Source: a virus. From it: DNA of 26,183 nucleotides. The position numbers and the translations under genes are program-made. The DNA lies in IMG/VR virus record IMGVR_UViG_3300037042_002212, positions 1-26,183 of that record, one strand, 5' to 3'. A model generated the notes under the pieces. It was not told where the DNA came from. It did not search any database and was given only the letters and a program-made list of their open reading frames with translations. Positions within the stretch are counted from its first letter, which is position 1. Each line of letters starts with the position of its first letter. Positions 1,282 to 26,183 of the stretch are shown in pieces.

Positions 1282-3486
1282 CTATACGTTCCAAGATGCA
1301 CATATAGTATGTATTCCAGTACTTGCCGAATTAGGCCATGCCGTCCCTGCGGGCGTAAAATAGATACGCATAACACCAACAGTAGAGATTGCCAACGTCC
1401 CAACCGTCGAAACATTATTCGATACAACCTCGATAGGTATACGTGTGCCCGCGCTAGGATATGCCCACGATTCTAGAGCGACAGACGAATCTACATAAGC
1501 GACAGACCCAGAAGATGTGCCATTAAATATGGACGTTGTGGTCAGGGTAACAACCCTTCCTACCCTAGTTATTTTTCCAGCAAAAGCACTGGTGGGGGTA
1601 GAGAAACTCCATACTGCATTAAGCAGTCTAGCATCATCCTCCCTATAATAATTCAGCGCAGTCTGCCCAGCAGCATCATCACATAGTATCCCGGTCGTAG
1701 TTTTGATTTGACCCACAACATCCAAAGCTACGGTTGGTGCCGCAATGCCGATGCCAACTTTGCCGTTATTTAAGATTGTGACCAAATTGGAATTTTCAGT
1801 ATTATTATCAATATTTATCGCCGTAGAACCAGAACTTATACTCATGTAACCAGCTGCTGCTGCTGTACGTATTCGTCCCCCGGTACCCGCACCGCCAAAG
1901 GTATTAACTGTTCCATCATTTACAAAATTTCCCGTAGCATGCATCGCACCCACAACATCCAAAGCTACGGTGGGTGCCGCGATGCCGATGCCCACGTTGC
2001 CATTAGCTAGTATACACATGCGTTCAGTGGGACTTACTGATCCGTCTGCCGACGTATTAAAGACCATCTTAGCTGGCATGGATGTAGCACTAGGAGTTCC
2101 GGTATCAACACTTGCACCAATATATGCTGCATTCTGAAATGCGGATACCCCATCGCTTCCCCTGAAAGAAATAAAACCAAGTTTATCCCCCGTAACAACA
2201 GCAGCATGCGTCCCAATTGTCGCACTCTTACTCCTATTAAAATCCACTAGTGGGCAATGTCCGGCAGTAGTTGACCATACATTAAGAGCATCACCGCCAT
2301 AGTTTGCAGACACATCGGTAGAAATAGATTGACCAAGCCTACTAGACGTCGCCGACGTTGATGCACCTACCTTAAGCGTTCCAGTAACCGCCAAATTTCC
2401 AGCAAAAGTCCCAGACACAAATGTCGCTTGATCCTGCACTCTCCAAGTTGAGTTTGTAGCATCCCAAGTCAGAATCGCCCATCCGTTCACTGGTAGCAGA
2501 GTTACATCAGTGTAAGCAACACCGCCATAAGTGATTGTCTCAGTTCCAGCATATCCTTGGATAACAAGCCGTTTTGTCGTTGTATCGTTTCCGAATGTTT
2601 TGAAGCCTATTGTTGCCGTTGAAGATGCTGTCAATGTCGATGACTGTGGAAGCCTGCAATAGCCGTTGTACGTGGCTAAATTGTACTGATACAGGTTGCC
2701 GCCAAGAGTCGCGAAAGGTGTGCCTGTTGCAACGCCGCCATCTTCCGCAGCAGCAGCAGCATGATAGACGACAGCAAGTCCGCCTCCAATTGTTTTGAAG
2801 GAAGACCCATCATCAACCACAAGAGATGCTTTGTCTGTGTCATATGCAACGGTAGCAACCTTGCGAGTGAGTCCAGAGAGTGTGGCAGTTGATGCCTTTG
2901 GTACGGTTACTCTTGATGTATTTGATGCCGTTGATCCTTCATAATCCTTGTTGGTCAATTGTTGGACCGTGGATTTTGTGGCGATTGTTACTGGTTTAAA
3001 TTTACTAGAAGTTGAATCGAAGACGAGAGCCTGCTCGTTGATGGCTGGTGTTGATAAATCAACGTCAGTAAGTTCTGATGACGTACCAGCAAAGTAACCT
3101 TGAACAATGATCGCCGCAATGTCTTGTTGCGATCCGGTGTTGTTTGTGATTGTTACTTTTGTCGTAGTAAAACCGCCTGTAGCAGCTACCACAAAGTCAT
3201 CAAGATCAGGTGTCCCGCCCTTAACGATCCTGGTCAATTCGCCAGTTCCCTCGTTGTAGGTGTGAAGAAGGATCTTCAATTCCGCGAAAGCGCATTTGAA
3301 GTTATGCTCCAAAACAACAGAATCAGCAGTATTCAAGTTCGGAGCTAAATAAAACCTGGATGTCAAAAAGTCTGACACCCTCGAATATATCGCCTTAATA
3401 TACGTTTCAAGAGTAGAACCGCCTTCATAACCCAGATCTGGGTGAATGAGTTGCGCCCTGCCTAATGTTGATGTTGTATTAGCCAT
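1282..3486 (-). CDS. Tail fiber protein with repeated VGIG modules
   Basis: 734 residues. The ATG at 3486 has GGGAG seven bases upstream and lies three bases after the previous stop. The N-terminal ~360 residues are Thr/Ser/Ala-rich, as in beta-structured fiber shafts, with an Ala-rich patch (YHAAAAAEDGG). From about residue 370 the protein matches the partial fiber downstream. The module [NK]VGIGIAAPTVALDVVG occurs twice (about residues 490-513 and 575-614), while the neighbour shows one copy in the visible part. The C-terminal ~100 residues (from GKITRVGRVVTLTT) look like a small beta domain that could contact the receptor. The NVGIG...LDV motif is common in tail fibers and in the stalk just before intramolecular chaperone domains, but no S74-type chaperone follows here. 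Inferred role: host recognition at the tail tip. Tail spike remains possible. Confidence 0.8.
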   Translation of the reverse strand: MANTTSTLGRAQLIHPDLGYEGGSTLETYIKAIYSRVSDFLTSRFYLAPNLNTADSVVLEHNFKCAFAELKILLHTYNEGTGELTRIVKGGTPDLDDFVVAATGGFTTTKVTITNNTGSQQDIAAIIVQGYFAGTSSELTDVDLSTPAINEQALVFDSTSSKFKPVTIATKSTVQQLTNKDYEGSTASNTSRVTVPKASTATLSGLTRKVATVAYDTDKASLVVDDGSSFKTIGGGLAVVYHAAAAAEDGGVATGTPFATLGGNLYQYNLATYNGYCRLPQSSTLTASSTATIGFKTFGNDTTTKRLVIQGYAGTETITYGGVAYTDVTLLPVNGWAILTWDATNSTWRVQDQATFVSGTFAGNLAVTGTLKVGASTSATSSRLGQSISTDVSANYGGDALNVWSTTAGHCPLVDFNRSKSATIGTHAAVVTGDKLGFISFRGSDGVSAFQNAAYIGASVDTGTPSATSMPAKMVFNTSADGSVSPTERMCILANGNVGIGIAAPTVALDVVGAMHATGNFVNDGTVNTFGGAGTGGRIRTAAAAGYMSISSGSTAINIDNNTENSNLVTILNNGKVGIGIAAPTVALDVVGQIKTTTGILCDDAAGQTALNYYREDDARLLNAVWSFSTPTSAFAGKITRVGRVVTLTTTSIFNGTSSGSVAYVDSSVALESWAYPSAGTRIPIEVVSNNVSTVGTLAISTVGVMRIYFTPAGTAWPNSASTGIHTICASWNV
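1644..1762. repeat. Tail-fiber cassette repeat, copy B
   Basis: Near-identical partner of 164-282 (offset 1480), within the complete fiber gene. Confidence 0.85.
1948..2018. repeat. Tail-fiber cassette repeat, shorter copy C
   Basis: Third copy of the DNA encoding NVGIGIAAPTVALDVVG, near-identical to the matching parts of copies A and B. It lies about 235 bases upstream (in coding sense) of copy B in the same gene, so this fiber carries an internal module duplication. Confidence 0.75.
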
Positions 3487-4615: not shown

Positions 4616-6472
4616 TTAAATCTCTTGGGTGATGGCAATGTCATATCCTGTGACTTTGCCGACAACATCAGTCTTTAAAGAACCAGTGAAACTAACCATC
4701 TGTAATAACCAGATCTTAACTGGTATTGATAGCCCCTTTGGGTCGTATCCTATTCGCCTGACTATTCCAGTTACCTTATCATTAAAAAGAGTCTCATATC
4801 CATCGTCATCGAAGTAGGTCGTAAAACTTATTCCACCGATATCAATATTTAAACTGATCTGATCCCCGATGTCCAATAACATCGAACGCGAAGTTAAAGA
4901 ACATTCTAAATATTCAATATATGGTGCCAACCTAAGCATTTCAGTTAGCTGGTAAACAACGTCAACTTCAATGTAAAGATTTGGAAAAACTATCAATTTT
5001 GATATTTTGTTATCCATTTGAGTTATTGCTAACTCATTTTTATATATCGGAGTTGAAAATGCGTTCTCATTTATGGCAGGACAGAACCCATAGTCTGACT
5101 GGGCTGCATTGAAAATAGCTGTGTCGTCCAACCTTGGATTGAGAGAATCTTTTATCAAATCCCAGTTTTTTATCACATAAGTTGGCGCTGCAACGAATGA
5201 TTCAAAATACATACCATGAAGAGATAACTTATCGTCTTTGTCGATATATATTTCCAATCTGACTTGCTCAAAAACTGACAAGCAATACTCTAAAAGCTTC
5301 TGACTTTCTTGAAGCCAAATTCTAGTTCTCATCGGCTTGGCCTCTAAAGTATCAGACCAATCTACCCAGTTATCTCCAAAATCATCTTCAATCAATTCTG
5401 GTGCATATGTCATCAAAAGATCTTTTACTTGCTGAACCGGATTGGTAGGAGAATATGTCCCAAGAGTTTTGCCGATAACTCTTACAAAAATTTCATCTCC
5501 ACTTTCATAGATCCATGGGTCAGTTCCTTCGGTTCCTACAAATAAATTCTTTTGAGTTATTGATATCGACCTATTATCTGTCCCAATAATTATCGTTATG
5601 TCTCCACTATCAAAAACATAGTTATCCTGACCTCTAGTCAATGTAACCGTATCAACATCTAAATATGAAAGCGCCGTTTGAGATATCACACATATAACAG
5701 GAGAATCACCAGCATTTGGATCTGGCTCACCTGTCCCCGGAACTTCTATTGATTTGTTCACAAGAGGATCTTTTCCGTTTATCACAAACGCCGGGATCTG
5801 AGATGCCTCTTTCAATAATTTAATAGTGTAATCGGTTGGGTCCGTTATCTTTAGCTTTCTTAGATTTGTAGTATGGTTTCCATAAATGATCGGTATTCCC
5901 TTTCCAACCGAATCATCATCTAAATATGGAAATTCTTCTTTCAAAAAAACATTTGTAGGTATATTGACGTTCAATGAATCAAATCTATTCATTGCATGAA
6001 TCTTAAAAGACTTCTTACTTCTTTCATATCCACCAGTTTTAGTTATTTTGCCTTTAAATATTCTTCTGTAATTATCTCCATCCTCTCCAATGCCAACTAA
6101 TATCTCAACAACTCTGTTAATGAACCCATTGTAGTTTCTACCACCAGGAAGCAGTTCATTATATTTTCCATCAGAATTATTTATCTCAATATCGCAGCTA
6201 GACATTTCTAACTGACTTGAAAGCCAATCGCCTATTGATTTACTTATTATTGGGAATGTCGCTCTTGGTTCACAGAACCTATGGTAATCATATCCAGGTA
6301 ATTTTATATATTTCGATCTGTCAGATAAAATGATTGTCCCATAAGGATCTGCAAACCCAGTTATAACGCAAATCATTTCAAGACGATTTGTTAAATTATC
6401 TTGGCATTGATCCAACAGCTCTTGGGTCAATGTTGTTGCAGTAAGATATGGCCGTCTGTCAGATGTCCCCAT
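4616..6472 (-). CDS. Tail hub / baseplate-like protein
   Basis: 618 residues from the ATG at 6472, which has GGAAG seven bases upstream. A longer frame from 6517 exists but has no comparable site and would overlap the previous gene more. The chosen start overlaps the upstream gene by 14 bases. The N-terminal ~220 residues contain IEINNSDGKYNELL, RRIFKGKITKTGGY, FKIHAMNRFDSLNVNIP and DSVGKGIPIIYGNH. This series (local coordinate system, excursion of a path or curve, then a GKGIPIIYG-type segment) is one I associate with phage tail hub or tip proteins. The middle has beta-rich segments with acidic stretches; the C-terminal ~150 residues include LLDIGDQISLNIDIGG, again hub-like. Position after the tape measure and tip-repeat protein fits. 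Exact family is not certain; no lysozyme or peptidase motif was seen. Confidence 0.6.
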   Translation of the reverse strand: MGTSDRRPYLTATTLTQELLDQCQDNLTNRLEMICVITGFADPYGTIILSDRSKYIKLPGYDYHRFCEPRATFPIISKSIGDWLSSQLEMSSCDIEINNSDGKYNELLPGGRNYNGFINRVVEILVGIGEDGDNYRRIFKGKITKTGGYERSKKSFKIHAMNRFDSLNVNIPTNVFLKEEFPYLDDDSVGKGIPIIYGNHTTNLRKLKITDPTDYTIKLLKEASQIPAFVINGKDPLVNKSIEVPGTGEPDPNAGDSPVICVISQTALSYLDVDTVTLTRGQDNYVFDSGDITIIIGTDNRSISITQKNLFVGTEGTDPWIYESGDEIFVRVIGKTLGTYSPTNPVQQVKDLLMTYAPELIEDDFGDNWVDWSDTLEAKPMRTRIWLQESQKLLEYCLSVFEQVRLEIYIDKDDKLSLHGMYFESFVAAPTYVIKNWDLIKDSLNPRLDDTAIFNAAQSDYGFCPAINENAFSTPIYKNELAITQMDNKISKLIVFPNLYIEVDVVYQLTEMLRLAPYIEYLECSLTSRSMLLDIGDQISLNIDIGGISFTTYFDDDGYETLFNDKVTGIVRRIGYDPKGLSIPVKIWLLQMVSFTGSLKTDVVGKVTGYDIAITQEI

Positions 6473-6692
6473 TTTTTTCTTCCATAAGCAAATCGAATAC
6501 TTCTTTAGGCACTCCAAAAAATGAACCGCTACTCATCTTGATGACGTAATCCCCATTTCTCATATACTGAATTCCTATAGGAGATCTTACTACATAGTTT
6601 GTACAAAATTTAGCAAGACCTGGAACAAGACGATGAAGCTGAAACTTGTTGGCTTCAATAGAAACATTATTTTTTGTAACAAAAGTAGACAT
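6459..6692 (-). CDS. Small unrecognised protein between tip-repeat protein and hub
   Basis: 77 residues; family not recognised. Its ATG shares one base with the previous stop (TAATG at 6692), indicating translational coupling. Its 3' end carries the ribosome binding site of the hub gene. The visible content is basic and mildly hydrophobic (LVPGLAKFCTNYVVRSPIG) with an acidic tail (LLMEEKNGDI). Conserved tight packing between two tail genes supports it being real. A small tail assembly or tip connector is possible, but nothing in the sequence proves it. Confidence 0.6.
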   Translation of the reverse strand: MSTFVTKNNVSIEANKFQLHRLVPGLAKFCTNYVVRSPIGIQYMRNGDYVIKMSSGSFFGVPKEVFDLLMEEKNGDI

Positions 6693-8614
6693 TACAAACT
6701 TTCGTCATAGTCCAGAGTTAATGAAACATAATGTTCTTCATCGGTTATTGCAGTATGGCTCTCAGAGGGAAGAACAGAGAGTTTAGAAAACACAGCAAGA
6801 GAACTTGGGTTCGTTGGCCTTGGTATAACAAGCGCCTTAAGATCTGTTTTATTTGTAATAAAATAGTCTCTTAGCATTTTATAGTTACCGCCATTATATT
6901 TTATCATTGAAAATGATAATGATAAGTTCTTCCTTATAGCTCTATCGTTAGATACAGGAGAGAACCCCTCTGTTTCAATCGTGTCCTTGAAATGCTTGAA
7001 CCCAAAAGTCACAGGGTTATCAAAGCATTCGGCCAAAGAAACAATTTTGGACGAACCTATAACAACAACACCCATATAAAGAGCATACGGATTCCCATAA
7101 TCAAGAACAAATATTCTCCAATACCTATATGGATTGCTTGGCACGTCAGGGCTTATCCAATAGGTGTTCTCCAATTCAACCGTAGGTCTAATGGTTATGT
7201 CTGCGGCACCGTTAGGATTCGTTGTATACCCATAGATTTCAACCACAGCGCCCTTTGTGAAGTTGTGGTTAAGAATTGCGATGGTATCAACATAGGTGTT
7301 TGGCTTTCCAGTATCGCACCAAATTGAAAATCCCCTAACTCCCTGGGCTGTCTTTGTAATCTGCTCCAATATATCGGTGTTCAAGTTGTTTGGATCATAG
7401 TCACCTTCGGCTATCCCGTCAGGAACATCATTCGTCCAAGTCTCTCCATTTTGCGCTGGAACGCCTCTACTTGCGAAATCAGTCAATATCCTCAATTGAG
7501 TTGTGTTATACAAAACTTTATTTACTTGGGTTTTGTGACTAACTTCTCCAATTTTTAATACTTGAACGCCAAGATAATTTTGAACATATATTATTTTTTC
7601 AACCTGATTAAAATTCAATGCATAAACATTAATCTTCATTTCTATTTGAATTGGTAAATAAATATCATCTGTAGAAGACATTATGTGAAGATTTATTTGT
7701 GACCCAATTTTATTGTCATGATAAATCTTACTATCTATTTGAACGCCATTAATATTTATGTAATCAATTCTCTTTTCAACTTGGCTTCCAACTTGAAGGT
7801 CTGTGTATTTCTTAAGATCTATTTGAGTAGATACTTCATTTACATTGTGAGTTCTCAGTTCAACCTGTGTGCTTATTGGATATTCAAAGTTTATCTTTTT
7901 ATCTATCTGTGCCGAAATATCCAGTCTCTCTTTAACTCCAAGATCTATCTGAGTTCCCATTGGAGTTGTGAAACATTCAGCAAGATACTTATCAGTCAAA
8001 TACGGAACCATTAAATATTTTGGACAAGGAATATGAAGAAGACCACCTTTTACAACCTCAACACCGAATGGGACAGATAGGTCTTCAATTAATTTTTCGA
8101 TCTGAGTTGAAATTGGATTTGAATATATATTTTTTAATTCAATTTGCATGTTAATAGATAATGAATCTTGTATTTCAAGATCTACTTGAGTGCTTAAATT
8201 ATAAATCTTATCTTCAATGAATCTTTCTATTTGAGATGAAACTACATTATATCCAGTAGCTATTTTATCTATTTGAGTGCTTAAAACATTTTCATCTAAT
8301 ATTGATAATTCAGACTGAACTCCATTTGGTAATTCATAATTTATTTCCAACTCTACTTGAACGCCATTATCTTGTTCATAATCAAGTATGGACTTTAATA
8401 TCTGCGTACCAAGATCTAACTCTAGGTTTATTTTCGATTCAACCTGAACAGACACCGAATTAGAATCTTGTATTTCCAAATCAATCTGTGACCCAAGATC
8501 AAAAATATGGGCTTCTATCTTCTTATCTATCTGCGCGCCCAAGTAATTCTGAACATGACCAGAAAGATACCCATCGGTTAAATATAATGATTCAAGATAT
8601 CCTTGCATTGCCAT
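6692..8614 (-). CDS. Tail-tip protein with 14-residue tandem repeats (distal-tail-like)
   Basis: 640 residues; starts in TAATG overlap with the tape measure stop. Residues ~25-375 consist of about 23 copies of a unit with the pattern [LIV]-[SG]-[TS]-Q-[IV]-[DE]-x-[KE]-[IL], repeating every 14 (sometimes 15) residues. The Gln of each unit falls at 28, 43, 57, 71, 86, 100, 114, 128, 143, 157, 171, then 222, 236, 250, 264, 278, 292, 306, 323, 337, 351. A YLTDxYL motif starts exactly 17 residues before the first Gln of each block (11 and 205). Residues ~380-540 (FSIWCDTGKPNTYVDTIAILNHNFTKGAVVEIYGYT...YWRIFVLDY) look like a galactose-binding/discoidin-like beta sandwich. The C-terminal ~100 residues look like a further beta domain. 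Position directly after the tape measure is that of a distal tail protein. Role inferred; the repeat is not one I recognise. Confidence 0.65.
   Translation of the reverse strand: MAMQGYLESLYLTDGYLSGHVQNYLGAQIDKKIEAHIFDLGSQIDLEIQDSNSVSVQVESKINLELDLGTQILKSILDYEQDNGVQVELEINYELPNGVQSELSILDENVLSTQIDKIATGYNVVSSQIERFIEDKIYNLSTQVDLEIQDSLSINMQIELKNIYSNPISTQIEKLIEDLSVPFGVEVVKGGLLHIPCPKYLMVPYLTDKYLAECFTTPMGTQIDLGVKERLDISAQIDKKINFEYPISTQVELRTHNVNEVSTQIDLKKYTDLQVGSQVEKRIDYININGVQIDSKIYHDNKIGSQINLHIMSSTDDIYLPIQIEMKINVYALNFNQVEKIIYVQNYLGVQVLKIGEVSHKTQVNKVLYNTTQLRILTDFASRGVPAQNGETWTNDVPDGIAEGDYDPNNLNTDILEQITKTAQGVRGFSIWCDTGKPNTYVDTIAILNHNFTKGAVVEIYGYTTNPNGAADITIRPTVELENTYWISPDVPSNPYRYWRIFVLDYGNPYALYMGVVVIGSSKIVSLAECFDNPVTFGFKHFKDTIETEGFSPVSNDRAIRKNLSLSFSMIKYNGGNYKMLRDYFITNKTDLKALVIPRPTNPSSLAVFSKLSVLPSESHTAITDEEHYVSLTLDYDESL
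7520..8551 (-). repeat. Protein-level tandem repeat array, 14-residue (about 42-base) period
   Basis: About 23 diverged units of the STQIDxKI type in two blocks separated by a 36-residue spacer holding a second YLTDxYL cap. DNA of different units has drifted, so the array is maintained by protein selection rather than recent copying. Confidence 0.8.
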
Positions 8615-11600
8615 TATCTAACTCCTGCGGAAGACAGAATATATCTACCCATTTGAGATTTTTTCTTCAGTTCTTTTTCTATCTCTGGAACTACTTCTCT
8701 TCGTATCTGATCTGCATCAAGTAATGTCCTTGAATTTATTGTCACATTAATAACTGTCCCACCAGATGACTGAAGAGGAGATCCGCCATTATTGATTGAT
8801 TGAAGAAGGCCCAAGTTATTCTTGGTAGAGTTGCGGTTTACTACAAACTCTCCAGGAGTAAGCATAGAAGGAACAGAATCGGTGCCTTGTGCAAAATTAG
8901 CAACTCGATTTGAATTTATATATCCACCGTCAGCAAAAGCAGGAACCATTCCACCACGACTAAACGCATTACCCCTGAACATGTCCATAATCCAAGATGT
9001 TGCCTTTGTTTTTACAGTATCCCACATTACCCTTTTAAGTTCTTCGGCGGCTGCGGCAGCGGCAGCAGCTATTTGAGCGGCAAGAACTTCGGCTGCTATT
9101 CTTGCGTCTTCAATGGCTCTAGCGGTAGCAGCAGCTATGTTAGCAGCAATTACTTTAGAATCCTCTACAGCCTGTGCAGCGGCAGCGGCGGCATCTTCCA
9201 ATGCTTGTGAAGCGGCTGCTGCTGCGGCGGCTGCGGCAGATGCGGCGGCGGCGGCGGCGGAATCAGCAAGATCCTTCCCAGAATCTATAACATCTCCTAA
9301 AGTTCCACCGACTTTTACTTTTGGAAATCCCATAGCAAATTTAGGTAACTGCATATTTCCGCTAAGTATGGAATTTATAATCCCAGCAATTCTTGGATCT
9401 TGCATTTTTGATCTTGGTATGATCGCTTCACCAGGAGAAAGAAGGGCTAGTATTCTGTCATTTCTTTCTGAATCTCCACTTACCAATGCATTTCCAGGAA
9501 CTTTACCACCTTCTGCAAAACTTACATAAGGTATGTCAATTCCAAGAGCGCCTTCAACAGTACCTTTACCATAGGCACTATCTGGAATTTTGAATATTTT
9601 GCCTAAAAGACTTGCTGGGTTTAAATCATCTAATATTTTCTTGAAACCAGTAGAAACATTATTAAATGCATCTTTCATTCCATCCCAAATACTAGATCCT
9701 ATTCCTTTGAAAAAATCCCTCGCTCCATCTAACCCATCCTTCAATCCATTAAATATTTTTGTTCCTATTCCAGATACAATATCAGATCCAGAAGACAACG
9801 CTGTAGTGAATGAATTCCAAATATCAGAACCAACATCTGCAAAAGCTTTTCCTATATCTTCTAAACCTTTAGTAAATGCGTTAGCTATATCACTTACGGC
9901 CTTAGAAAAGGCGTTAATTGTGTCTTCTATTCCTTTAGTAAATGCGGCAACTATATCACCAGCAGCCTTTAATAATGCTGTGGATATATCTTCTAATGCT
10001 TTATAAAATGCATCAAATACATTTCTCCATATAGTTTCTATTTGCGACCAAAGTATAGTTAATGCATCACAAATATTTCTCCATATAGTTTCTATTTGCG
10101 ACCATAATATTGTAAGTGTGTCACAAATATTTCTCCATATAATTTCTATTTCACCCCATAAAGATTGCAATGTATCGCAAAACATTCTCCATATATATTC
10201 TATTAAACTCCACAATCTCGTTAATTCAGCGCAAATATCTCTCCATGCTTTTTCTGCTGTATCCCATATATTTTGAAGAACGTCTACGAATGGTTTTAAA
10301 AAGTGATTCCATACATACAACCAAATATCTTTTAAATATTGAAGAGCCTTATTCCATATCATTTTAAGATAATTAGCCCCGCCCACTAGAGACTGATCAA
10401 TTGCTTTTTTAATTCTGTTAGCCAGATCACTTCCCTTGGCTTTCTGGGCGCTTTCCATAACAGAGAACAATTGTGAACTAGACTTACTTACAGCCTCACC
10501 TAGCTCCTCAACTTTCTTTGTAACATCAGGAATGTTGAATATCGGTTTCATTTTAAATAATGCAGCTACTTCATTAATAAATTTTTTAAATTCTAATATA
10601 AACCCATCTACAAAAGCCTTTACCATTGTTTTAATTATTGGCCCTATATTCTTAACAAGAAGAATAACTCCCTTAATTATTGATAATACTATTTTTGGAA
10701 TAAATAAAAGCAAAGATGCCATCATTTTACCAATGCTGGCCCAAAACTTCTCGGACGAAAATGTTTTTACAAAGCTATCCATTACTTTATCAATAACATT
10801 AGGAAACATATCAAGCCAACTTTGAAACATTCTCGTAGTATCAACACTTCCCTTTGATACAAGATCTCCGAATGTTTTTGCGGCGCTATTGAATGTGTTT
10901 GCTACTTTTCCTGGAAAACTGGATACAGCATCTAGAAGGTCAAGGAATTTCTGAGGAAGTTCTGCTATGGCATTGATCATAGACTTTATAGCATCCATGA
11001 TCATTCCGGCGGCTGACACCATTCCCATAGGCCCGCCCATGAAGCTAGTGAAGGAAGCCATCCCATTGGCAAGAGGAGCGCCAAAATTAGCTCCTGCTTG
11101 TTCGATCTGAGCAGAGTTAAATACAGCGCCACCTTTTTCTACTGCTGGCGCTATCTTTGTTTTCCTTGTTGTAGCAGCCTCTTTCTTTTTGAGATCGTCC
11201 AACATATCAAGTCGATCTTTTATAAGATCATTCTGGTACTTTTCTAATTTAATTAATGCTTCTTTTCCAAGTTCCATTGTTTCAGTAGTATTATAACCTC
11301 TCTCATTCATCATTCTTTGGGCTTCAATGGCTCTTTGTATGCTAGATATTTCATCATCGTAAGCCTTTGTTTTTTCATTTCTTTCTCTATTAAAAGCTTT
11401 AATATAATTTCCTTGCGCCTCTGCTCTTGCTTCATCTATTTTTGCCTGTTTAGTTTCATAACTTAAAAGTTCAGTTCCAATTAAATTATAAGTTTCAGCA
11501 ACAGCTTCATGATATTTCTTTGCTGCCGCGTCTGCTTCCTTAAAAGAACTTGTAATCTTTCCAGAATCATCTCCATATGTTGCTGCATATGCTGTGGCAA

Positions 11601-13731
11601 GAGCCTTTTTATAATCCTGAGATTCCGATAAAATTTTAAAGTATGCCGCATCTAATTTAGTTAACGCGTTTGTCCCTTTGTATATAGAATTTATATCTTT
11701 TTCAGTCATGCCTATATACGGAACCTTCTTTGCAACAGCAGTTTTAGATTCTCCAGGAACAGCATTAGTATCAGGCTGTCCTTGAAGCTTCTTGAAAAAT
11801 GCATCCAAAGCCGTTCCATTTTTTATTACATCATCATTAAACCCCTTCATTGCTGAAGTTAAGTTATCAGACATAGTAAAAACAAAAGGTGTCTGCACTG
11901 TTTTTCTAAGTTCATTTAATCTTGTGTTTAGCTTTGCATATTCATCATTAAGAGTTTGAACCTTATCTTTATGGCCCAATAAATCTGGCCCTGAGTTTTT
12001 AAGTTTTACTATTACTTCATCAGACCATTTTCTTATAGCATCTTGCGAAAATCCAAATAGCCCAACGAATCCTGCCATGAAGTCAGTAACGCCAGAAAGA
12101 AATGAAGCAAACGCATCTACCAACAAAGTTGAAAAACCATTTTTAATAGATTCAACCCAATACTCGAAAGCATTTCTAGCCATGTCGGCTTTAACTTTCA
12201 TTATTTCAAATGCATCTCCAAGATTATTTCTATTTCGATATATATATTCAATGGCAGTTCCAAATGCCATTACAGTCATTGTTAATAGAGTAAATTTAGC
12301 CATAACAACTAATGCGCCGCTCATGGCAAATGTTAAAAATATAATTGCTAATCCAAACTCTTTTGCGCCCTTTGTAGCCGCGCTCCAATTAATCCTTTGC
12401 AAAGCTTGAGCGAACGCGACAACAACAGGATAAACAGCGTCAATGACTTCTCTCATTCCTGTTATTACTCTTGCGGTAACATCTAAGAGTTTGTATCCAA
12501 AGTCCTGTATTAATGCAGTAAATGTTCCTTTTAGAATCATCAACTTTCTATCAACGGTTTTCATCTGTATGTCAACAGCCTGACCAACAACAGTTCCAGG
12601 TATTCCTTCGGTAGCCTTTATCTGGGCCATTGTTTTCTCATAAACGCCAAGAATAGCTGGGTTCATGATCATAGTGATCAATCCCTGGATGCCTTCTTGT
12701 CGTCCTATCAAGTTACCTACGGCTTCGGCCTGTCCACCTACTGCTTCAATCAACGCCTTCATTGTCTTAAGAAGACCAACAGACTTGAGCATCTCCTGAA
12801 TGCCAGAAAACTGCTTGCCGTCTATTTTTAATGTCGGAAGGATTGTCCCAAGTAATTCGGACTGTTTCATAAATGACACTAGGATTGATCTAAGGTATGT
12901 CATTGCCTGTCCAGTGTCTTGCTGTGCCGTTGTCATTGCTGACAGTGCAGAGGCTGTCTCTCCAAGAGATACACCCATATTATAAGCAAGAGGGGCAACA
13001 TCCCCGATGGTAAGAGCCAAGTCAGTCATCGTTGCCTGACCGTTTCTTTCAGCCAATGTCAAAATGTCGGATATTCTCGCTGCATCAGAAGCCTTCATGT
13101 TGTATGCAGCTATGACAGATGTTAATGCCCTGACAGAAACGGACAATTCCGTAGACCCACCAATTGCCAATCTCTGAGCGTCATATAGGAACTTTGTGGC
13201 ATCATTGGCCGAGACAATTCCGCTACTTAAAGTCTTATAATAAGCTTCGATAATGTCTTGCTGCGATGTCCCAAATAATCTTTGAAAGTTTATAATATCG
13301 CTGCTGAATGTCTTCTGAGCATCTTTGACATCAGGAACAATAGCATTAATTGTTGCTGCGCCTTTTTCCAGTGCTATGGCCGGACCCATTACAGCCGTAC
13401 CGAGTGTAGCAAATGTTCTAAATGTCCTGGTAACAAGCTCAAGGGCCTGGTTTACCATGAATATCTTAGAGGGAAGAGATCCTATGTTTTTGCCAAAAAG
13501 GGTAAACATGCCACCGCTAGAACCAGCGCCATCTCCTGCACCCTTTAAGGCAGATCTCATTTTGCCAGCAGATTCTTGAACTTTGCCTGACGCTCCAGTT
13601 AAATCATTGGCCATCTTGGTGAATGCTTTGGCCATTGAATCGGCTACGCCCTGGATCATCTTAAGCTTGGCTGTGGCTTCGTCCTTGACACTAATTGGAA
13701 TGACAAATTCGTCGCCAGTTGTTACAGCCAT
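8614..13731 (-). CDS. Tail tape measure protein
   Basis: 1705 residues from the ATG at 13731, which has GGGGGAA upstream; a TTG at 13746 would place that site inside the gene and is not used. Residues ~100-350 form a TP901-type phage tail tape measure core (MGPAIALEKGAATINAIVPD, TLAERNGQATMTDLA, LGETASALSAMTTAQQDTGQ). Hydrophobic segments lie near 457-495 and 1000-1038, as usual for proteins that may enter the host membrane. A charged coiled region lies near 720-830, 18-residue Trp repeats at ~1147-1237, 11-residue repeats at ~1240-1330, and an Ala-rich stretch at ~1485-1563. Two SPGE/TPGE motifs (LLSPGEAIIPRS, MLTPGEFVVNRNS) mark the C-terminus typical of the family. At the generally cited ~0.15 nm per residue the tail would be roughly 250 nm. 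It ends in TAATG overlap with the tip gene. Confidence 0.95.
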   Translation of the reverse strand: MAVTTGDEFVIPISVKDEATAKLKMIQGVADSMAKAFTKMANDLTGASGKVQESAGKMRSALKGAGDGAGSSGGMFTLFGKNIGSLPSKIFMVNQALELVTRTFRTFATLGTAVMGPAIALEKGAATINAIVPDVKDAQKTFSSDIINFQRLFGTSQQDIIEAYYKTLSSGIVSANDATKFLYDAQRLAIGGSTELSVSVRALTSVIAAYNMKASDAARISDILTLAERNGQATMTDLALTIGDVAPLAYNMGVSLGETASALSAMTTAQQDTGQAMTYLRSILVSFMKQSELLGTILPTLKIDGKQFSGIQEMLKSVGLLKTMKALIEAVGGQAEAVGNLIGRQEGIQGLITMIMNPAILGVYEKTMAQIKATEGIPGTVVGQAVDIQMKTVDRKLMILKGTFTALIQDFGYKLLDVTARVITGMREVIDAVYPVVVAFAQALQRINWSAATKGAKEFGLAIIFLTFAMSGALVVMAKFTLLTMTVMAFGTAIEYIYRNRNNLGDAFEIMKVKADMARNAFEYWVESIKNGFSTLLVDAFASFLSGVTDFMAGFVGLFGFSQDAIRKWSDEVIVKLKNSGPDLLGHKDKVQTLNDEYAKLNTRLNELRKTVQTPFVFTMSDNLTSAMKGFNDDVIKNGTALDAFFKKLQGQPDTNAVPGESKTAVAKKVPYIGMTEKDINSIYKGTNALTKLDAAYFKILSESQDYKKALATAYAATYGDDSGKITSSFKEADAAAKKYHEAVAETYNLIGTELLSYETKQAKIDEARAEAQGNYIKAFNRERNEKTKAYDDEISSIQRAIEAQRMMNERGYNTTETMELGKEALIKLEKYQNDLIKDRLDMLDDLKKKEAATTRKTKIAPAVEKGGAVFNSAQIEQAGANFGAPLANGMASFTSFMGGPMGMVSAAGMIMDAIKSMINAIAELPQKFLDLLDAVSSFPGKVANTFNSAAKTFGDLVSKGSVDTTRMFQSWLDMFPNVIDKVMDSFVKTFSSEKFWASIGKMMASLLLFIPKIVLSIIKGVILLVKNIGPIIKTMVKAFVDGFILEFKKFINEVAALFKMKPIFNIPDVTKKVEELGEAVSKSSSQLFSVMESAQKAKGSDLANRIKKAIDQSLVGGANYLKMIWNKALQYLKDIWLYVWNHFLKPFVDVLQNIWDTAEKAWRDICAELTRLWSLIEYIWRMFCDTLQSLWGEIEIIWRNICDTLTILWSQIETIWRNICDALTILWSQIETIWRNVFDAFYKALEDISTALLKAAGDIVAAFTKGIEDTINAFSKAVSDIANAFTKGLEDIGKAFADVGSDIWNSFTTALSSGSDIVSGIGTKIFNGLKDGLDGARDFFKGIGSSIWDGMKDAFNNVSTGFKKILDDLNPASLLGKIFKIPDSAYGKGTVEGALGIDIPYVSFAEGGKVPGNALVSGDSERNDRILALLSPGEAIIPRSKMQDPRIAGIINSILSGNMQLPKFAMGFPKVKVGGTLGDVIDSGKDLADSAAAAAASAAAAAAAAASQALEDAAAAAAQAVEDSKVIAANIAAATARAIEDARIAAEVLAAQIAAAAAAAAEELKRVMWDTVKTKATSWIMDMFRGNAFSRGGMVPAFADGGYINSNRVANFAQGTDSVPSMLTPGEFVVNRNSTKNNLGLLQSINNGGSPLQSSGGTVINVTINSRTLLDADQIRREVVPEIEKELKKKSQMGRYILSSAGVR
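9043..9275 (-). repeat. Ala-rich low-complexity stretch in the tape measure
   Basis: GCN-rich DNA encoding runs of up to nine alanines broken by short charged groups such as QALEDA, QAVEDSK and RAIEDAR. The spacing of these groups suggests a degenerate helical repeat. GC content here is clearly above the flanking sequence. Confidence 0.85.
10021..10290 (-). repeat. Five tandem 54-bp repeats in the tape measure
   Basis: Units begin at 10021, 10075, 10129, 10183 and 10237. The first two share a 30-base identical start; the last two are more diverged. Each encodes an 18-residue unit of the form LWSQIETIWRNICDALTI, with Trp at two fixed positions. Confidence 0.85.
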
Positions 13732-13732
13732 C

Positions 13733-14161
13733 TTATTTTCCCCCAAACATTTTGCTAATCATTTTCCCTAAAGATTCTAAAACATTTCCAGCTAGTTCGT
13801 ATGAACTTCTCCACATTGTAGAATTTTCTTTAAGCCTAAAATAATTAACAAACCAAGAAAAGTTTTCAGCGAACATTTCGTCCTGATCTTCTAATGACCC
13901 AGGTTTTGGCATAATCCCTGTTTCAAGTGCCATTAGACAGTCAGAGAACAATTCGGCTATCTCATTGTACCATGTTGCTTTTCCATGGCAAAACGTCAGT
14001 TTGAGACTTGATGGATCTATTTGCCTTCCTCTTGGAATGTTATTAAACCCATCTTCTTTACATTTTCGTTGCCTTTTGACTACTTCGGGACATTTCTGGC
14101 AGTCTACCGTCTTCAAAACATCATGTGGTGAAAACCTTAGATCTACCAATGCCCCTAAGAG
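13733..14161 (-). CDS. Tail assembly chaperone extension (gpT-like), reached by -1 frameshift
   Basis: This frame lacks a good start of its own: the only candidate near its beginning is a TTG at 14149 without a well-spaced ribosome binding site. It is exactly the -1 frame of the upstream gene at a slippery A_AAA_AAC, so a shifting ribosome reads ...SKN-LLGALVDLRFSPHDVLK... and makes a fusion of about 300 residues (158 + 142). The extension has a Cys cluster (VDCQKCPEVVKRQRKC) and ends in a basic helix (KMISKMFGGK), one base before the tape measure ATG. In lambda and many siphoviruses gpG and the frameshifted gpGT sit between tube and tape measure genes and load tube subunits onto the tape measure. 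Sequence similarity to named gpT proteins is not evident; the call rests on position, frame and slippery site. Confidence 0.75.
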   Translation of the reverse strand, partial: LLGALVDLRFSPHDVLKTVDCQKCPEVVKRQRKCKEDGFNNIPRGRQIDPSSLKLTFCHGKATWYNEIAELFSDCLMALETGIMPKPGSLEDQDEMFAENFSWFVNYFRLKENSTMWRSSYELAGNVLESLGKMISKMFGGK

Positions 14162-21410: not shown

Positions 21411-23939
21411 TCATGAATTGACGATTAAATCAGACTTGGATCTAGCATCTTGTGGAATTACAGAAACCCATGAACAACGGCAGTTACAAATATCAGCAGG
21501 GCCAGAACTAGGATCTCTTGGATATTTCATTTTCCCGCCAGTTGTTGGATTAGTCCAAACATAATCATATGCCACAATTCCATCGCCTTCAAATGCGGCG
21601 TGTTCTTTCCTGGCTTCAGGGTTAATGCCAACATCACCTGTGTGGAACCATTGCTTGCCAACTTCGTCAAATACTTCTCGAAGAACCTTGTGGTTCCATT
21701 CCTGACCTTCAGATATGGCGCACAATGTCTCTGTCCTTACGATTGTGTCAACTCGGTATCCGAACTTGACCTCATAATTGGCCCTTAAGCTACTTGCGAT
21801 AATAGAATCTGTCTTGCCAGCCTTTTGGCCGTCTTCTATCACTTGCATGATCTCTTCTGATCTAACCTTGTCGATTCCATTCTCAGCGTCTACAAACCCA
21901 TCCAAAAGCCGCCTAGCGAGGGTTCTCCTCTGATCATCTCTTGTTCTTTCCCTGATTATATCAATGGCAACCAAGTCACTATCCTCAAATGTCGTGCCTG
22001 CTTCTGCCCTGACCATAACCTTAGAAAGCGTCTTTGCATTTGAAGTTGCAATAGAAAATGACTTTTCCATTATTTCGTTGGCAACAGGAAGAACATCCTC
22101 TATGTATTTTTTCTTCCTGGTTTCATGCTGAGACATCAAGAATGACCCAACATCTCTGCCGGAAGATAGAGCATATCTAGCGTTTGCCAGTATGTTTTCT
22201 AGGTACTTATCAATGGCTTTAGAATACTTTTTGGATTCTACTTCTTCCAAATTTGCCTGATCATCAACTGCCTTTTTCTTAGCCAAACTCTTCGCGCCAA
22301 AGTAAGTTTCTTTGTCGATAATGTCTGGATGGGTATGAGAATCATCGCCACCAGATAATACTCTCCAACCTTTGATTGCATGATTGTGCTGAGTGCCATC
22401 TCCCTGGACGTTTCCTAGAGTTGTGCCATCTCCGTTTTCATCCCATTGGCAATAATGAACGTGTCTGTACTGACCGTTGCCATCATCAGTATTTCCCTTT
22501 TTGAACTTCTTCTCTTCCAAGACATCGGGAGGAGGTGGCGGCTCGTCGCTTCTTTGATCTTTAGGATTTCCAATAGTAGACAAAGGATTGCTTTTAACTA
22601 TTTCAGAAACAAATTTGTCTCCTCTTATGTCGCCTTCTTCCATCGGAGGAATCTTCAAGATCTCTTTTCTAATTTCATTTATTGTCATGAACTTAGCTGC
22701 TTTTTCTCCCAATTCGCATTTGCTATAGAAAGATCCTTCTACAGCGTCAAGACCCTCTAAATCTGCCTTAACGTATATCTTCCCTTTGTACTTTGTTTTT
22801 ATTAGATAAGATTCATTCCAACCGCTTTCAATAAAAAGCGTTAGAGGAACAATAGTGTTATCCCAAAGAGCAGCTTTCTGATCTTCAGAAGTTGACCTGT
22901 TTACGTCCTGGACAATACCAACCTGAGAAGGAGGTATCCCAAGGTTTGCTAGAAGTGTCGATCTGTTTTCTTTCAATCCTTCGAGATGTTGCATCTCTGT
23001 CATCGAAAGAGTTGAGTTCTTCCACCTAGCGCCCTTTGGCAGAAACAGTTGTCTCCACCAGTTTCTCTTTCCAGTGAAGGCTTGCTCAAACGTCCGCATC
23101 AGACGTTCCATCCTGGTTTTGCTTATCTCCTGGTCTGTCTCGATAACACCAGAATGCATCCCACCACGAAGATAGAAAGCCATCTCATATTCATTTTTAT
23201 ATCTGTCTAATAGAATTGGCCTAGATGCGCTTATTATTAATGGAAGTCCATAGAACGGATTAAATGGGTTAGGTAGTTTTACATGAACGCATCTTTCAAA
23301 GGGAATATTACCATCTGTAAACTTCAGGGCCGAAAGATCGCTTATTTGAATGGATTCAATTGGCCCAAGTTCTACGATCTTTTTCCTGTCTATGTCAGAC
23401 CTTATCTCGCGCATAACGGGCGTGACAGTAGCGAGAGGAATCCACATGCACGTTGTATACTTTTCATCAAAGATAAGGAAATAGTTACCGCCAAGAACGG
23501 CATCAATATAAGAGCAAGAATCCCTGAAGGCTTTGCTTGTAATGAAGTTGCCAGTGTCTATCAGTTTTTGAATTGGATGTTTTGGGATCTCTTTGTGCGT
23601 AGCTGAATCATAAACTTTGAAAGGAACTTGCATCAAACTTCTAGCGATTAAGTTGGCGCAAGTATTGACCCAGGGTTCTTTAGCGTAAAGACCAACCAGG
23701 CGCCCAACAGTTGCCTGGATGTTGAATTCTGAACCAAAATAGTTTCCGTTTTGTTGCGAATCGTCATTCTGAAACTTGTCATATCCAAACTCTGCTTTGA
23801 TATGAGCATCAATTCCAAAACGATCATTCATATCTACTTTAACAAAACGTGCATCGTTTAACTCGGATATGTCGGTTAAATCTTCCTTCAAAGTAACAGG
23901 TTCGGGACTTTTATCCCGAAAAAAGTCTTTCAAATTCAC
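21411..23939 (-). CDS. Fused portal and MuF-like head protein
   Basis: 842 residues beginning at a GTG (23939) with AAGGA nine bases upstream; no in-frame ATG is closer. Residues 1-460 are an HK97-type portal (family stretch LLANLGIPPSQVGIVQDVNR at ~329-348; YGLPLIISASRPILLDRYKN). A Pro run (DEPPPPPD, ~466-472) leads to a His-rich domain at ~491-540 with HVH, HNH and HTH pairs. Residues ~560-842 are MuF-like: a coiled middle, RTETLCAISEGQEWN, and a terminal GPADICNCRCSWV, the Cys-rich segment typical of MuF proteins. The portal ring is the DNA entry point; MuF proteins are minor head proteins needed for morphogenesis. Having both in one chain is seen in some phages. Confidence 0.85.
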   Translation of the reverse strand: MNLKDFFRDKSPEPVTLKEDLTDISELNDARFVKVDMNDRFGIDAHIKAEFGYDKFQNDDSQQNGNYFGSEFNIQATVGRLVGLYAKEPWVNTCANLIARSLMQVPFKVYDSATHKEIPKHPIQKLIDTGNFITSKAFRDSCSYIDAVLGGNYFLIFDEKYTTCMWIPLATVTPVMREIRSDIDRKKIVELGPIESIQISDLSALKFTDGNIPFERCVHVKLPNPFNPFYGLPLIISASRPILLDRYKNEYEMAFYLRGGMHSGVIETDQEISKTRMERLMRTFEQAFTGKRNWWRQLFLPKGARWKNSTLSMTEMQHLEGLKENRSTLLANLGIPPSQVGIVQDVNRSTSEDQKAALWDNTIVPLTLFIESGWNESYLIKTKYKGKIYVKADLEGLDAVEGSFYSKCELGEKAAKFMTINEIRKEILKIPPMEEGDIRGDKFVSEIVKSNPLSTIGNPKDQRSDEPPPPPDVLEEKKFKKGNTDDGNGQYRHVHYCQWDENGDGTTLGNVQGDGTQHNHAIKGWRVLSGGDDSHTHPDIIDKETYFGAKSLAKKKAVDDQANLEEVESKKYSKAIDKYLENILANARYALSSGRDVGSFLMSQHETRKKKYIEDVLPVANEIMEKSFSIATSNAKTLSKVMVRAEAGTTFEDSDLVAIDIIRERTRDDQRRTLARRLLDGFVDAENGIDKVRSEEIMQVIEDGQKAGKTDSIIASSLRANYEVKFGYRVDTIVRTETLCAISEGQEWNHKVLREVFDEVGKQWFHTGDVGINPEARKEHAAFEGDGIVAYDYVWTNPTTGGKMKYPRDPSSGPADICNCRCSWVSVIPQDARSKSDLIVNS

Positions 23940-23956: not shown

Positions 23957-26183
23957 TTATGCATCTTCATAATCGAAAACAAACTCATGGTCTTCTTTAT
24001 CTTCATCGTCAACGTCGAATGGGTCGGGGCCATCCATGGCCAAATCGGCATAAGCGCCAATCACATCATCCAGATTCTCACCATTCAAGGCTGCTATAAG
24101 ATACTCTTCCGCAGAAGACGAACAGCTATTTGAATATGCTCCACTTATCGCAAGTATCGCTGCCGATACAACGTCATCATGTTCGCCTTCTGGAGCGCCA
24201 TACTTGTGCAGTCCAGAAGCCGTGACAGATAGCTCATAAATACCAAACTCATGGGCAATGCGCCTGATTTTTGGTGTTTTGTGCCAACCTGATTGAACAC
24301 TTAGAACGGCTTTCGTTATCATCTCAGATTTAGACTTCGAGGTAAAGCAGATTGGCTGAACATCGGCCTCTAACTGAGCTTCATTGAGCATATCCTCGAA
24401 AGCTACACCAACACCTGTTGCGTCAAACCTAACCGTATTATCACAATCAGTAAAATAATTAGTTAGATATGTCTTAAGCCTTATCACTTGTTGAGGATAT
24501 GGAATCAATTGGAATCTGCAATATCCAACCAGTTTTCCGATAGAATTGACAGTATAAAATACTGTGTAGTCCTGTTTTTTTGCAACGTCCACTCCATGGT
24601 ACATTTCGCCAGTTCTATAAGATGAATCATGAATCCAAAATCTCTCCATTGATGGCTTGTAAATAACCGAATCGTCCCACATGGTACTTAGATCGCCAAA
24701 CGTAGTCGAATGACTGATAAATTCTGCCAAATAATATTGAGAAAAAAGATGCGGAGGAAGAAGTTTCTTCGCCCTGGCAATCGCTTCTTTTGAAACAAAT
24801 GGGCTGTCTTCTGTCTTCAAATTAACATATACGAAAAAAGGATCGTCACCCATCTTGGCCTGTCTGGCTATCTCATAATACCATGTAAGACCTCTTGGCG
24901 TACCAGTGACAATCCCTTTGCCCCTGGTTTGAGTGATGGTTGTTAGAAGAGAGATCCAAACTTGCTTTCCAATTTTTCCGGCTTCATCAACGCAAAATCT
25001 GTCTACGGCTTCACCTTCTATGGTTGTCTCTGCATCTTTACCATGAAGGAATTTTACGAATGACCCATTTCCCAATCGGATCTCCAAAAGCCCATCCATC
25101 ATATCTATAGAAGAATCTGACGGCATAAACGATTTGAAGTACCTGTAAGCGATCTTACATTTTAGATATGTAGGAGCGATCCAAACACAATAGAGCCTTG
25201 GATAGGTCATCGCTTCAGTAACCATCCATAGGGCAGACCCATAGGTATTGTGTGTTGGGATGCATCCTTCTCCACATAGGAAAAGATGGGTAGGACTATC
25301 TACCTTAATACATTTGACTGGTACTGAAGGAACAGGATTGACTGCGACAATAGTGCGGTGTTTTGCTTTAAGGGCCACAGGACGTATTCTGTCGAGTTTG
25401 CGCTTTAGACGAAAGACAGGGACATCGGTTGTAAAAAGAACTCGATAGCAAAGCTTTTTTTGTACGCCATATAATTTCCCATATCTCTCTTGTCTTGAAA
25501 CTCTTATCCCAAGAGAAACGGCCAATTTCTCAACACCGTCCGCAATGTTTTTGTTTGTATTATCGAAGCAACATTTTCCAGTTTTACCAACAGTCCCATC
25601 TGTATCCATTAATCCCTGGAGAAGAGCTAATCTTTGCGCTGAAGATCCAATAAGATATTGATCGGGAATCCTTTTCTCTTTTGGCCTTCCTATCTTTTTT
25701 AAATCTGTTATCAATCCCAAAACACCATGTTGTTTTCCATCTGGATAATCAGTAACTACATATCCAGCTTTCTCTATTTCCTCGACAATCTGCCTATCTG
25801 GCTTACAGTATGATCCGTGGCCAGTACTACCATCTCCCAACCAAATACCAAGAACATATGGATCTACTTCAAGCTTTTGTTCTTTAAATTGTATTGGGCC
25901 AGAAACCAATTTAACAGAATGATTGGGTCTTTCTACTCCTCCTATTGTAATAGTAAGAGTATCCAATATTTGTTTGGTTGTTCTCAATTGAGGAGCCGCC
26001 TCAGTTGTTTTGCAGCGATCATTTTTCGATAAAACCCTAGCTTGATTCTTTCTCTCGTAATGAGTTTCTGTTAGCCATAAATGATCCTCGTCTGCTACAA
26101 CTTTAGTCCCATCCGAAAAGACTAGTTCATAACATTTATGATCATACATCGGCTCAGAGGCCCAAATAACCTCGATTGGATGA
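23957..26183 (-). CDS. terL: Terminase large subunit interrupted by an intein, 5' end off-window
   Basis: The frame is open across the right edge. Numbering from the Met codon at 26149, residues up to 301 are intein and 302-730 are terminase. The extein resumes with TYGSALWMVTEAMTYPRLYC; Walker B is VDRFCVDEA (Asp388-Glu389) and TGTPRG follows at 415-420. The nuclease has acidic residues in YHGVDVAKKQDYT (Asp521), VRFDATGVG (Asp576) and EGEHDDVVSA (Asp658/659), the three positions of an RNase-H-like TerL nuclease. The C-terminus is strongly acidic. The Walker A motif is not in the window; the first extein residue Thr302 followed by YG suits the Thr of a GK[T/S] P-loop. The protein translocates DNA into the prohead and cuts concatemers, after removal of the intein. 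Confidence 0.9.
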   Translation of the reverse strand, partial: HPIEVIWASEPMYDHKCYELVFSDGTKVVADEDHLWLTETHYERKNQARVLSKNDRCKTTEAAPQLRTTKQILDTLTITIGGVERPNHSVKLVSGPIQFKEQKLEVDPYVLGIWLGDGSTGHGSYCKPDRQIVEEIEKAGYVVTDYPDGKQHGVLGLITDLKKIGRPKEKRIPDQYLIGSSAQRLALLQGLMDTDGTVGKTGKCCFDNTNKNIADGVEKLAVSLGIRVSRQERYGKLYGVQKKLCYRVLFTTDVPVFRLKRKLDRIRPVALKAKHRTIVAVNPVPSVPVKCIKVDSPTHLFLCGEGCIPTHNTYGSALWMVTEAMTYPRLYCVWIAPTYLKCKIAYRYFKSFMPSDSSIDMMDGLLEIRLGNGSFVKFLHGKDAETTIEGEAVDRFCVDEAGKIGKQVWISLLTTITQTRGKGIVTGTPRGLTWYYEIARQAKMGDDPFFVYVNLKTEDSPFVSKEAIARAKKLLPPHLFSQYYLAEFISHSTTFGDLSTMWDDSVIYKPSMERFWIHDSSYRTGEMYHGVDVAKKQDYTVFYTVNSIGKLVGYCRFQLIPYPQQVIRLKTYLTNYFTDCDNTVRFDATGVGVAFEDMLNEAQLEADVQPICFTSKSKSEMITKAVLSVQSGWHKTPKIRRIAHEFGIYELSVTASGLHKYGAPEGEHDDVVSAAILAISGAYSNSCSSSAEEYLIAALNGENLDDVIGAYADLAMDGPDPFDVDDEDKEDHEFVFDYEDA
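25247..26183 (-). mobile_element. Intein with LAGLIDADG homing endonuclease, N-terminal end off-window
   Basis: In frame with terminase. Visible parts, numbered from the Met codon at 26149: block B-like VVADEDHLWLT (~18-27); LAGLIDADG motif 1 YVLGIWLGDG (Asp106); motif 2 LLQGLMDTDG (Asp184); C-terminal splicing blocks VKCIKVDSPTHLF and CGEGCIPTHN, ending His300-Asn301. The next residue is Thr302, a nucleophile able to serve at +1. Both catalytic aspartates and all visible splicing residues are present, so splicing and homing could be intact. Roughly the first 35-40 residues, with the N-terminal nucleophile, are beyond the window. Confidence 0.9.

Follow-up and report, generated by a model that had tools for sequence, protein, structure and literature searches.

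The window, by which is meant the whole stretch of DNA analysed, is a 26,183-base virus record with a head-and-tail module on its minus strand, where a terminase, a portal fused to a Mu-F domain, a capsid region, tail genes and a tape measure gene accompany the gene that is the subject of this work (Table 1). The frame 6692-8614, for which the original prediction named no strand, is open on the minus strand only, and runs from an ATG at 8614, with AGGAG (8626-8622) seven bases ahead of it, to 6692, encoding 640 amino acids; the repeat claimed for this frame is real. Its placement immediately behind the tape measure gene, also part of that prediction, is borne out, as the two genes abut in the window and the upstream gene is that of the tape measure in every relative where it is readable. 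Downstream lie genes of 77, 633, 225 and 138 amino acids and then two tail-fibre-like genes, and a gene of the same size as that of the 633-residue protein follows the repeat protein in the three relatives examined. The arrangement agrees with the gene order tape measure, distal tail protein (Dit), hub, the tape measure being recognized by PF10145 and the putative hub by a weak match (E = 0.11) together with gene order.

The remainder of the module, also on the minus strand, displays further features. The terminase large subunit (23957-26182) contains an apparent intein, and the contig begins within this intein-like sequence, a probable intein whose end (...CIPTHN, followed by T) lies at the terminase ATPase region. 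The portal fused to a Mu gpF-like domain (21411-23939) matches PF04860 with E = 3.6e-40, while its match to PF04233, at E = 0.002, is below the curated cut-off of that family. The two tail-fibre-like genes (3-1214 and 1282-3486) are adjacent and have near-identical stretches in common (LANGNVGIGIAAPTVALDVVG..., CDDAAGQTALNYY), which suggests duplication or exchange between them.

Table 1. Features of the repeat-protein locus, in window coordinates.
Feature	Position	Strand	Basis
Putative repeat-bearing minor tail protein, whole gene, 640 aa	6692..8614	-	Full-length match of L103 protein, 37% identity, same gene order
Tape measure protein, 1,710 aa, upstream neighbour abutting the repeat-protein gene	8614..13746	-	PF10145, E = 3.4e-21
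633-aa downstream protein in hub position	4616..6517	-	phrog_196 baseplate hub, weak, E = 0.11; gene order
N-terminal YL triad GYLESLYLTDGYLSGHV, residues 5-21	8549..8614	-	Motif at N-terminus of nearly all relatives
Repeat block 1, 12 units: Q28, 43, 57, 71, 86, 100, 114, 128, 143, 157, 171, E186	8033..8542	-	
Middle element LLHIPCPKYLMVPYLTDKYLAECFTTP (residues ~190-215): His194, Cys197, second YL triad, Cys214	7957..8035	-	
Repeat block 2, 11 units: Q222, 236, 250, 264, 278, 292, 306, 323, 337, 351, 363	7505..7960	-	
C-domain, residues 369-640: phrog_8610 relative; galactose-binding-like fold and second domain (~536-637)	6695..7510	-	

Residues 20-375 of the protein carry a 14-residue period, the residue-score autocorrelation reaching z = 6.7 at lag 14 and 3.9 at lag 28 against shuffled sequences. 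A profile trained on 55 relatives detects 22 units, and a 23rd, degenerate one (FGVEV, at Glu186) can be read by eye, in agreement with the original count of about 23 copies; the same profile finds 1.2 units in shuffled family members versus 11.8 in real ones. The consensus derived from the relatives is G-x-Q-[V/F/A/I]-x-[R/L/F]-x-I-x-[D/N]-loop, in which the Gln is the most conserved position (80%, otherwise Glu). Spacings between units are of 14 or 15 residues, except for one of 17 and for the final step of block 2, which is of 12, so that the near-regular spacing described at the outset holds, but the array is divided into blocks of 12 and 11 units around a distinct middle element that repeats the N-terminal YLxxxYLxxxYL motif. 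With a mean identity of 26% at the amino acid and 44% at the nucleotide level, the units are diverged and old, and the window itself shows no recent duplication.

Searches of IMG/VR with a degenerate DNA pattern and with profiles identified about 100 relatives, to which is added one 7 kb contig of a Bacteroidetes MAG, which may be a misbinned virus. The pattern, consisting of five 14-spaced Gln-Val/Ile codons, yielded contig L103, whose protein is related to that of the window over its full length (E = 4e-126), most of the 119 contigs obtained from the first DNA pattern being out-of-frame or low-complexity matches; C-domain profiles gave successively 7, 69 and 102 loci, 80 of which were kept. 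No Pfam or NCBIfam family covers the window protein, and no described repeat family was found for it, in keeping with the original remark that the repeat was not recognized in a described tail family. Exact-peptide scans, PDB sequence searches and a first GTDB scan gave no matches, and tblastn found the repeats in no cultured phage. A match to Aeromonas phage AVP3 (L200, 5188-9573) was rejected, being due to a tail protein whose C-terminus is an array of an unrelated, 13-residue PYGLQPGVIADLT repeat, and gp71 of EBPR siphovirus 2 (ESV2) was discarded as a repeat-bearing relative, as it corresponds to the C-domain without repeats. Within the family several features recur: most proteins repeat the N-terminal YL motif in the middle element, which carries two Cys in 38 of the 47 relatives that have it and holds 80 of the 101 Cys of the N-terminal halves; the last Gln precedes the YN that opens the C-domain by exactly 6 residues in 79/79 proteins; and the final unit-to-unit step is of 12 residues in 74/78.

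The C-domain of the window protein matches the phrog_8610 profile with E = 0.0037, as do those of 48 of 49 relatives (best E 4.9e-20). In the AlphaFold2 model, for which 49 relatives were aligned, this region mostly displays pLDDT values above 85, and Foldseek matches it to CBM32 modules (TM 0.7 on the target), which agrees with the galactose-binding-like C-terminal half initially proposed; in the viral library, matches are to phage proteins of ~265 residues, one of them from Caulobacter phage Sansa. Homologues of the C-domain include Sansa gp39 and gp40 (E ~1e-88), which match phrog_8610 over the full extent of that family, and ESV2 gp71 (E 9e-35), but these proteins, of ~264 residues, comprise nothing beyond the C-domain and have neither YL triads nor repeats. 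The two Sansa proteins are encoded in tandem (L202, 27641-29223), and phrog_8610 has no annotated function. In the tail module of ESV2 the phrog_8610 gene is immediately preceded by a large gene of tape-measure size, and in that of Sansa one further gene intervenes between the tape measure gene and the phrog_8610 genes; the window protein is likewise encoded at the tape measure gene of a tail module. No member of a set of 49 matched a Pfam Dit family, an hhalign comparison of the window family with the one annotated Enterococcus phage Dit tested gave a probability of 0.5%, and a full-length Foldseek search lists the tail and neck chains 9jlf_E and 9l0f_G with TM values of 0.34-0.35 and rmsd of ~13.

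The length of block 2 follows a strict rule. It was measured without the repeat profile, as the number of residues between the second YL triad, counted from its end, and the YN with which the C-domain opens, because unit calling should not affect the result. This distance is of 28 residues in 15 proteins, 69-76 in 41, 112-122 in 8 and 157 in the window protein, the single value of 34 reflecting a triad mis-parsed by the pattern; no values fall between the length classes, and the best period for the 66 proteins is 43.0. The corresponding unit counts are 2, 5, 8 and 11, all 2 mod 3, with those of L228, L238, L125 and L263 corrected for degenerate or misplaced units. On a tree of the C-domain (76 rows, IQ-TREE quick search, SH-aLRT only) unit number requires at least 19 changes, at least 17 of which remain within 2 mod 3, and the two exceptional ones lead to the single-block proteins L192 (3 units) and L229 (12 units). 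Block 2 thus grows and shrinks in steps of three units, or 43 residues, and has done so at least 17 times on this tree. Block 1 is less strictly quantized, with counts of 0 or 1 mod 3, and rarely 2, its sister pairs often being three units apart (10/13, 7/10, 4/7). Units three places apart resemble each other more than those at lags 2 and 4, by 0.19 +/- 0.04, with no peak at lag 6. In addition, there is a deficit of 15-residue steps at each third position, counting from the middle element (shuffling, uncorrected for kinship, gives p = 0.0003), a loop-phase class that was picked after viewing the table, the class tested first having given p = 0.047; these p-values are descriptive.

A further sign of the rule is a 132-bp tandem duplication in L184, 99% identical, which comprises exactly three units. 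Could three-unit steps simply reflect the way in which the DNA is duplicated? Single-unit tandem repeats of 42/45 bp exist in L186, L241 and L255, and a mutational artefact limited to triplet duplications was rejected on these grounds; given that single units are also duplicated, the triplet rule looks like the result of selection. It suggests, from comparative sequence, that three units correspond to one turn of a compact beta-coil. The rule also bears on the possibility that three chains, each giving one strand, assemble through their repeats into a long, homotrimeric beta-fibre shaft, which would make the protein an extended rod or side fibre. Fibre-shaft repeats, such as those of triple beta-spirals and tail fibres, resemble the present units in length, in their alternating hydrophobic residues and in their conserved Gly-x-Gln turn; copy number varies here, and a weak monomer prediction would suit an obligate oligomer. 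In a C3 homotrimer, however, a shift by one unit restores an equivalent position, so that single-unit changes should survive, yet block 2 admits three-unit steps only. A single chain with three units to a turn is therefore favoured, and the homotrimeric shaft is considered unlikely.

Structure prediction is consistent with a strand in each unit, as had been proposed from the alternating hydrophobic pattern. In the AlphaFold2 model of the window protein the repeats reach pLDDT values of only 30-55, but a model of a block of the relative L183, aligned with other blocks (29 rows), places a single strand, 8-11 residues long, in each unit, with pLDDT 72. It is from the three-unit rule, and not from this model, that we infer three strands per turn; 23 units would then make only about 7-8 turns, which at ~4.8 A per turn span a calculated ~35-40 A in total, and the extended rod of the original prediction is therefore not favoured, while the collar or tail-tip element that it also named is still plausible. 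A Foldseek search with the L183 repeat model gave no significant match, its nearest hits being beta-helices and functional amyloids with E >= 0.09. The three units could also make up an antiparallel sheet of three strands, in the manner of a blade or small domain that is repeated several times, which would account for the three-unit steps as well as for the local similarity at lag 3. Strands occupying different places in such a sheet should, however, maintain a lasting three-phase pattern, and there is none at lag 6; as units six places apart are no more alike than others, the three sides are probably nearly equivalent, which a solenoid fits better, and the blade arrangement appears distinctly improbable.

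The relationship with the tape measure was explored as well. Fourteen extended residues approximate the rise of one tail ring, but a correspondence of one unit per ring was rejected, as unit number is unrelated to tape-measure length (rho = 0.12, p = 0.33, n = 63; the earlier sample had n = 47). The same result weighs against the units acting as an array of short linear docking motifs, wrapped around a trimeric or hexameric part of the tail or lining it, with one unit per subunit contact and three per turn, as does the prediction of strands rather than coil. Since the siphophage tail-end hub, beside the Dit ring, has three-fold stoichiometry (PMC13243795), three contacts per lap would also quantize the block; the gene directly adjoins that of the tape measure, and the unit sequences are loosely constrained, but this arrangement is nevertheless judged to have little likelihood. 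The selection acting on the repeats points to a scaffold-like role rather than to hypervariability: in informative pairs of equal length, dN/dS is 0.06-0.22 for the repeats and 0.03-0.09 for the C-domain, so that the repeats evolve faster than the C-domain, yet under purifying selection, and a hypervariable receptor binder under positive selection was rejected. Values for L168/L169, L168/L191 and L163/L174 were set aside because of unequal lengths in an ungapped alignment, and those for L143/L145 and L176/L181 are based on too small a number of changes.

The explanation that best accounts for these observations, to which we would give about an even chance of being correct, is that of a minor tail protein made at the Dit position, whose C-terminal ~270 residues, a phrog_8610 module with a carbohydrate-binding-like fold, would dock in the tail tip, as its position and its relatives suggest. 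The N-terminal half would form two short beta-solenoid blocks with three strands per turn and a YL-YL-YL element at the start of either block; every 14-residue unit ([G]-x-Q-V-x-R/F/L-x-I-x-D/N-loop) would contribute one predicted strand to a side of a three-sided coil, and one turn would comprise three units, or ~43 residues. From the location that we infer within the virion, the blocks could serve as a rigid decoration or spacer at the tail tip, whose height would be adjustable by whole turns. A large tail-protein family, with about 100 IMG/VR relatives, previously known only through an unnamed C-domain, is thus described, and a fold-level prediction has been obtained from comparative sequence alone, through a block length that varies by three 14-mers. 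If it is true, a wide three-strand solenoid would be added to the known phage tail parts, and the family would offer a natural length series (2, 5, 8 and 11 units) for the study of how coils are built.

Most described parallel beta-solenoids employ roughly 18-25 residues per turn, in contrast to the ~43 of the turn proposed here, and the best structural neighbours of the repeat model, all of them non-significant, are the CsgA and FapC amyloids, left-handed beta-helix enzymes and SufB/SufD. It is conceivable, as a tentative view that we hold with less than even confidence, that there is a class of solenoid, unrecognized by the structure search, in which each turn consists of three equivalent strands of 14 residues (~43 residues), and that uncultivated siphophages employ it at the tail tip as a module adjusted in height by whole turns. 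A 14-residue QVGxFRV repeat is also found in a phage protein with an N-terminus that appears LamG-like by eye (L066, reverse strand, 10568-12568); it resembles the window repeat in its period, its Gln and Val and its hydrophobic residues at +3/+5, but differs in architecture and apparently belongs to another phage type, and is possibly convergent with, or a distant cousin of, the repeat described here. Galactose-binding-like decorations have been described on Dit (PMC13243795), and it is because of these, the Dit position and the carbohydrate-binding-like fold that decoration of the tail tip is the likeliest role. The window protein is thus similar to siphophage Dit in gene order, being encoded after the tape measure and before a hub-sized gene, and to decorated Dit in its galactose-binding-like fold, but differs from them in bearing two repeat blocks.
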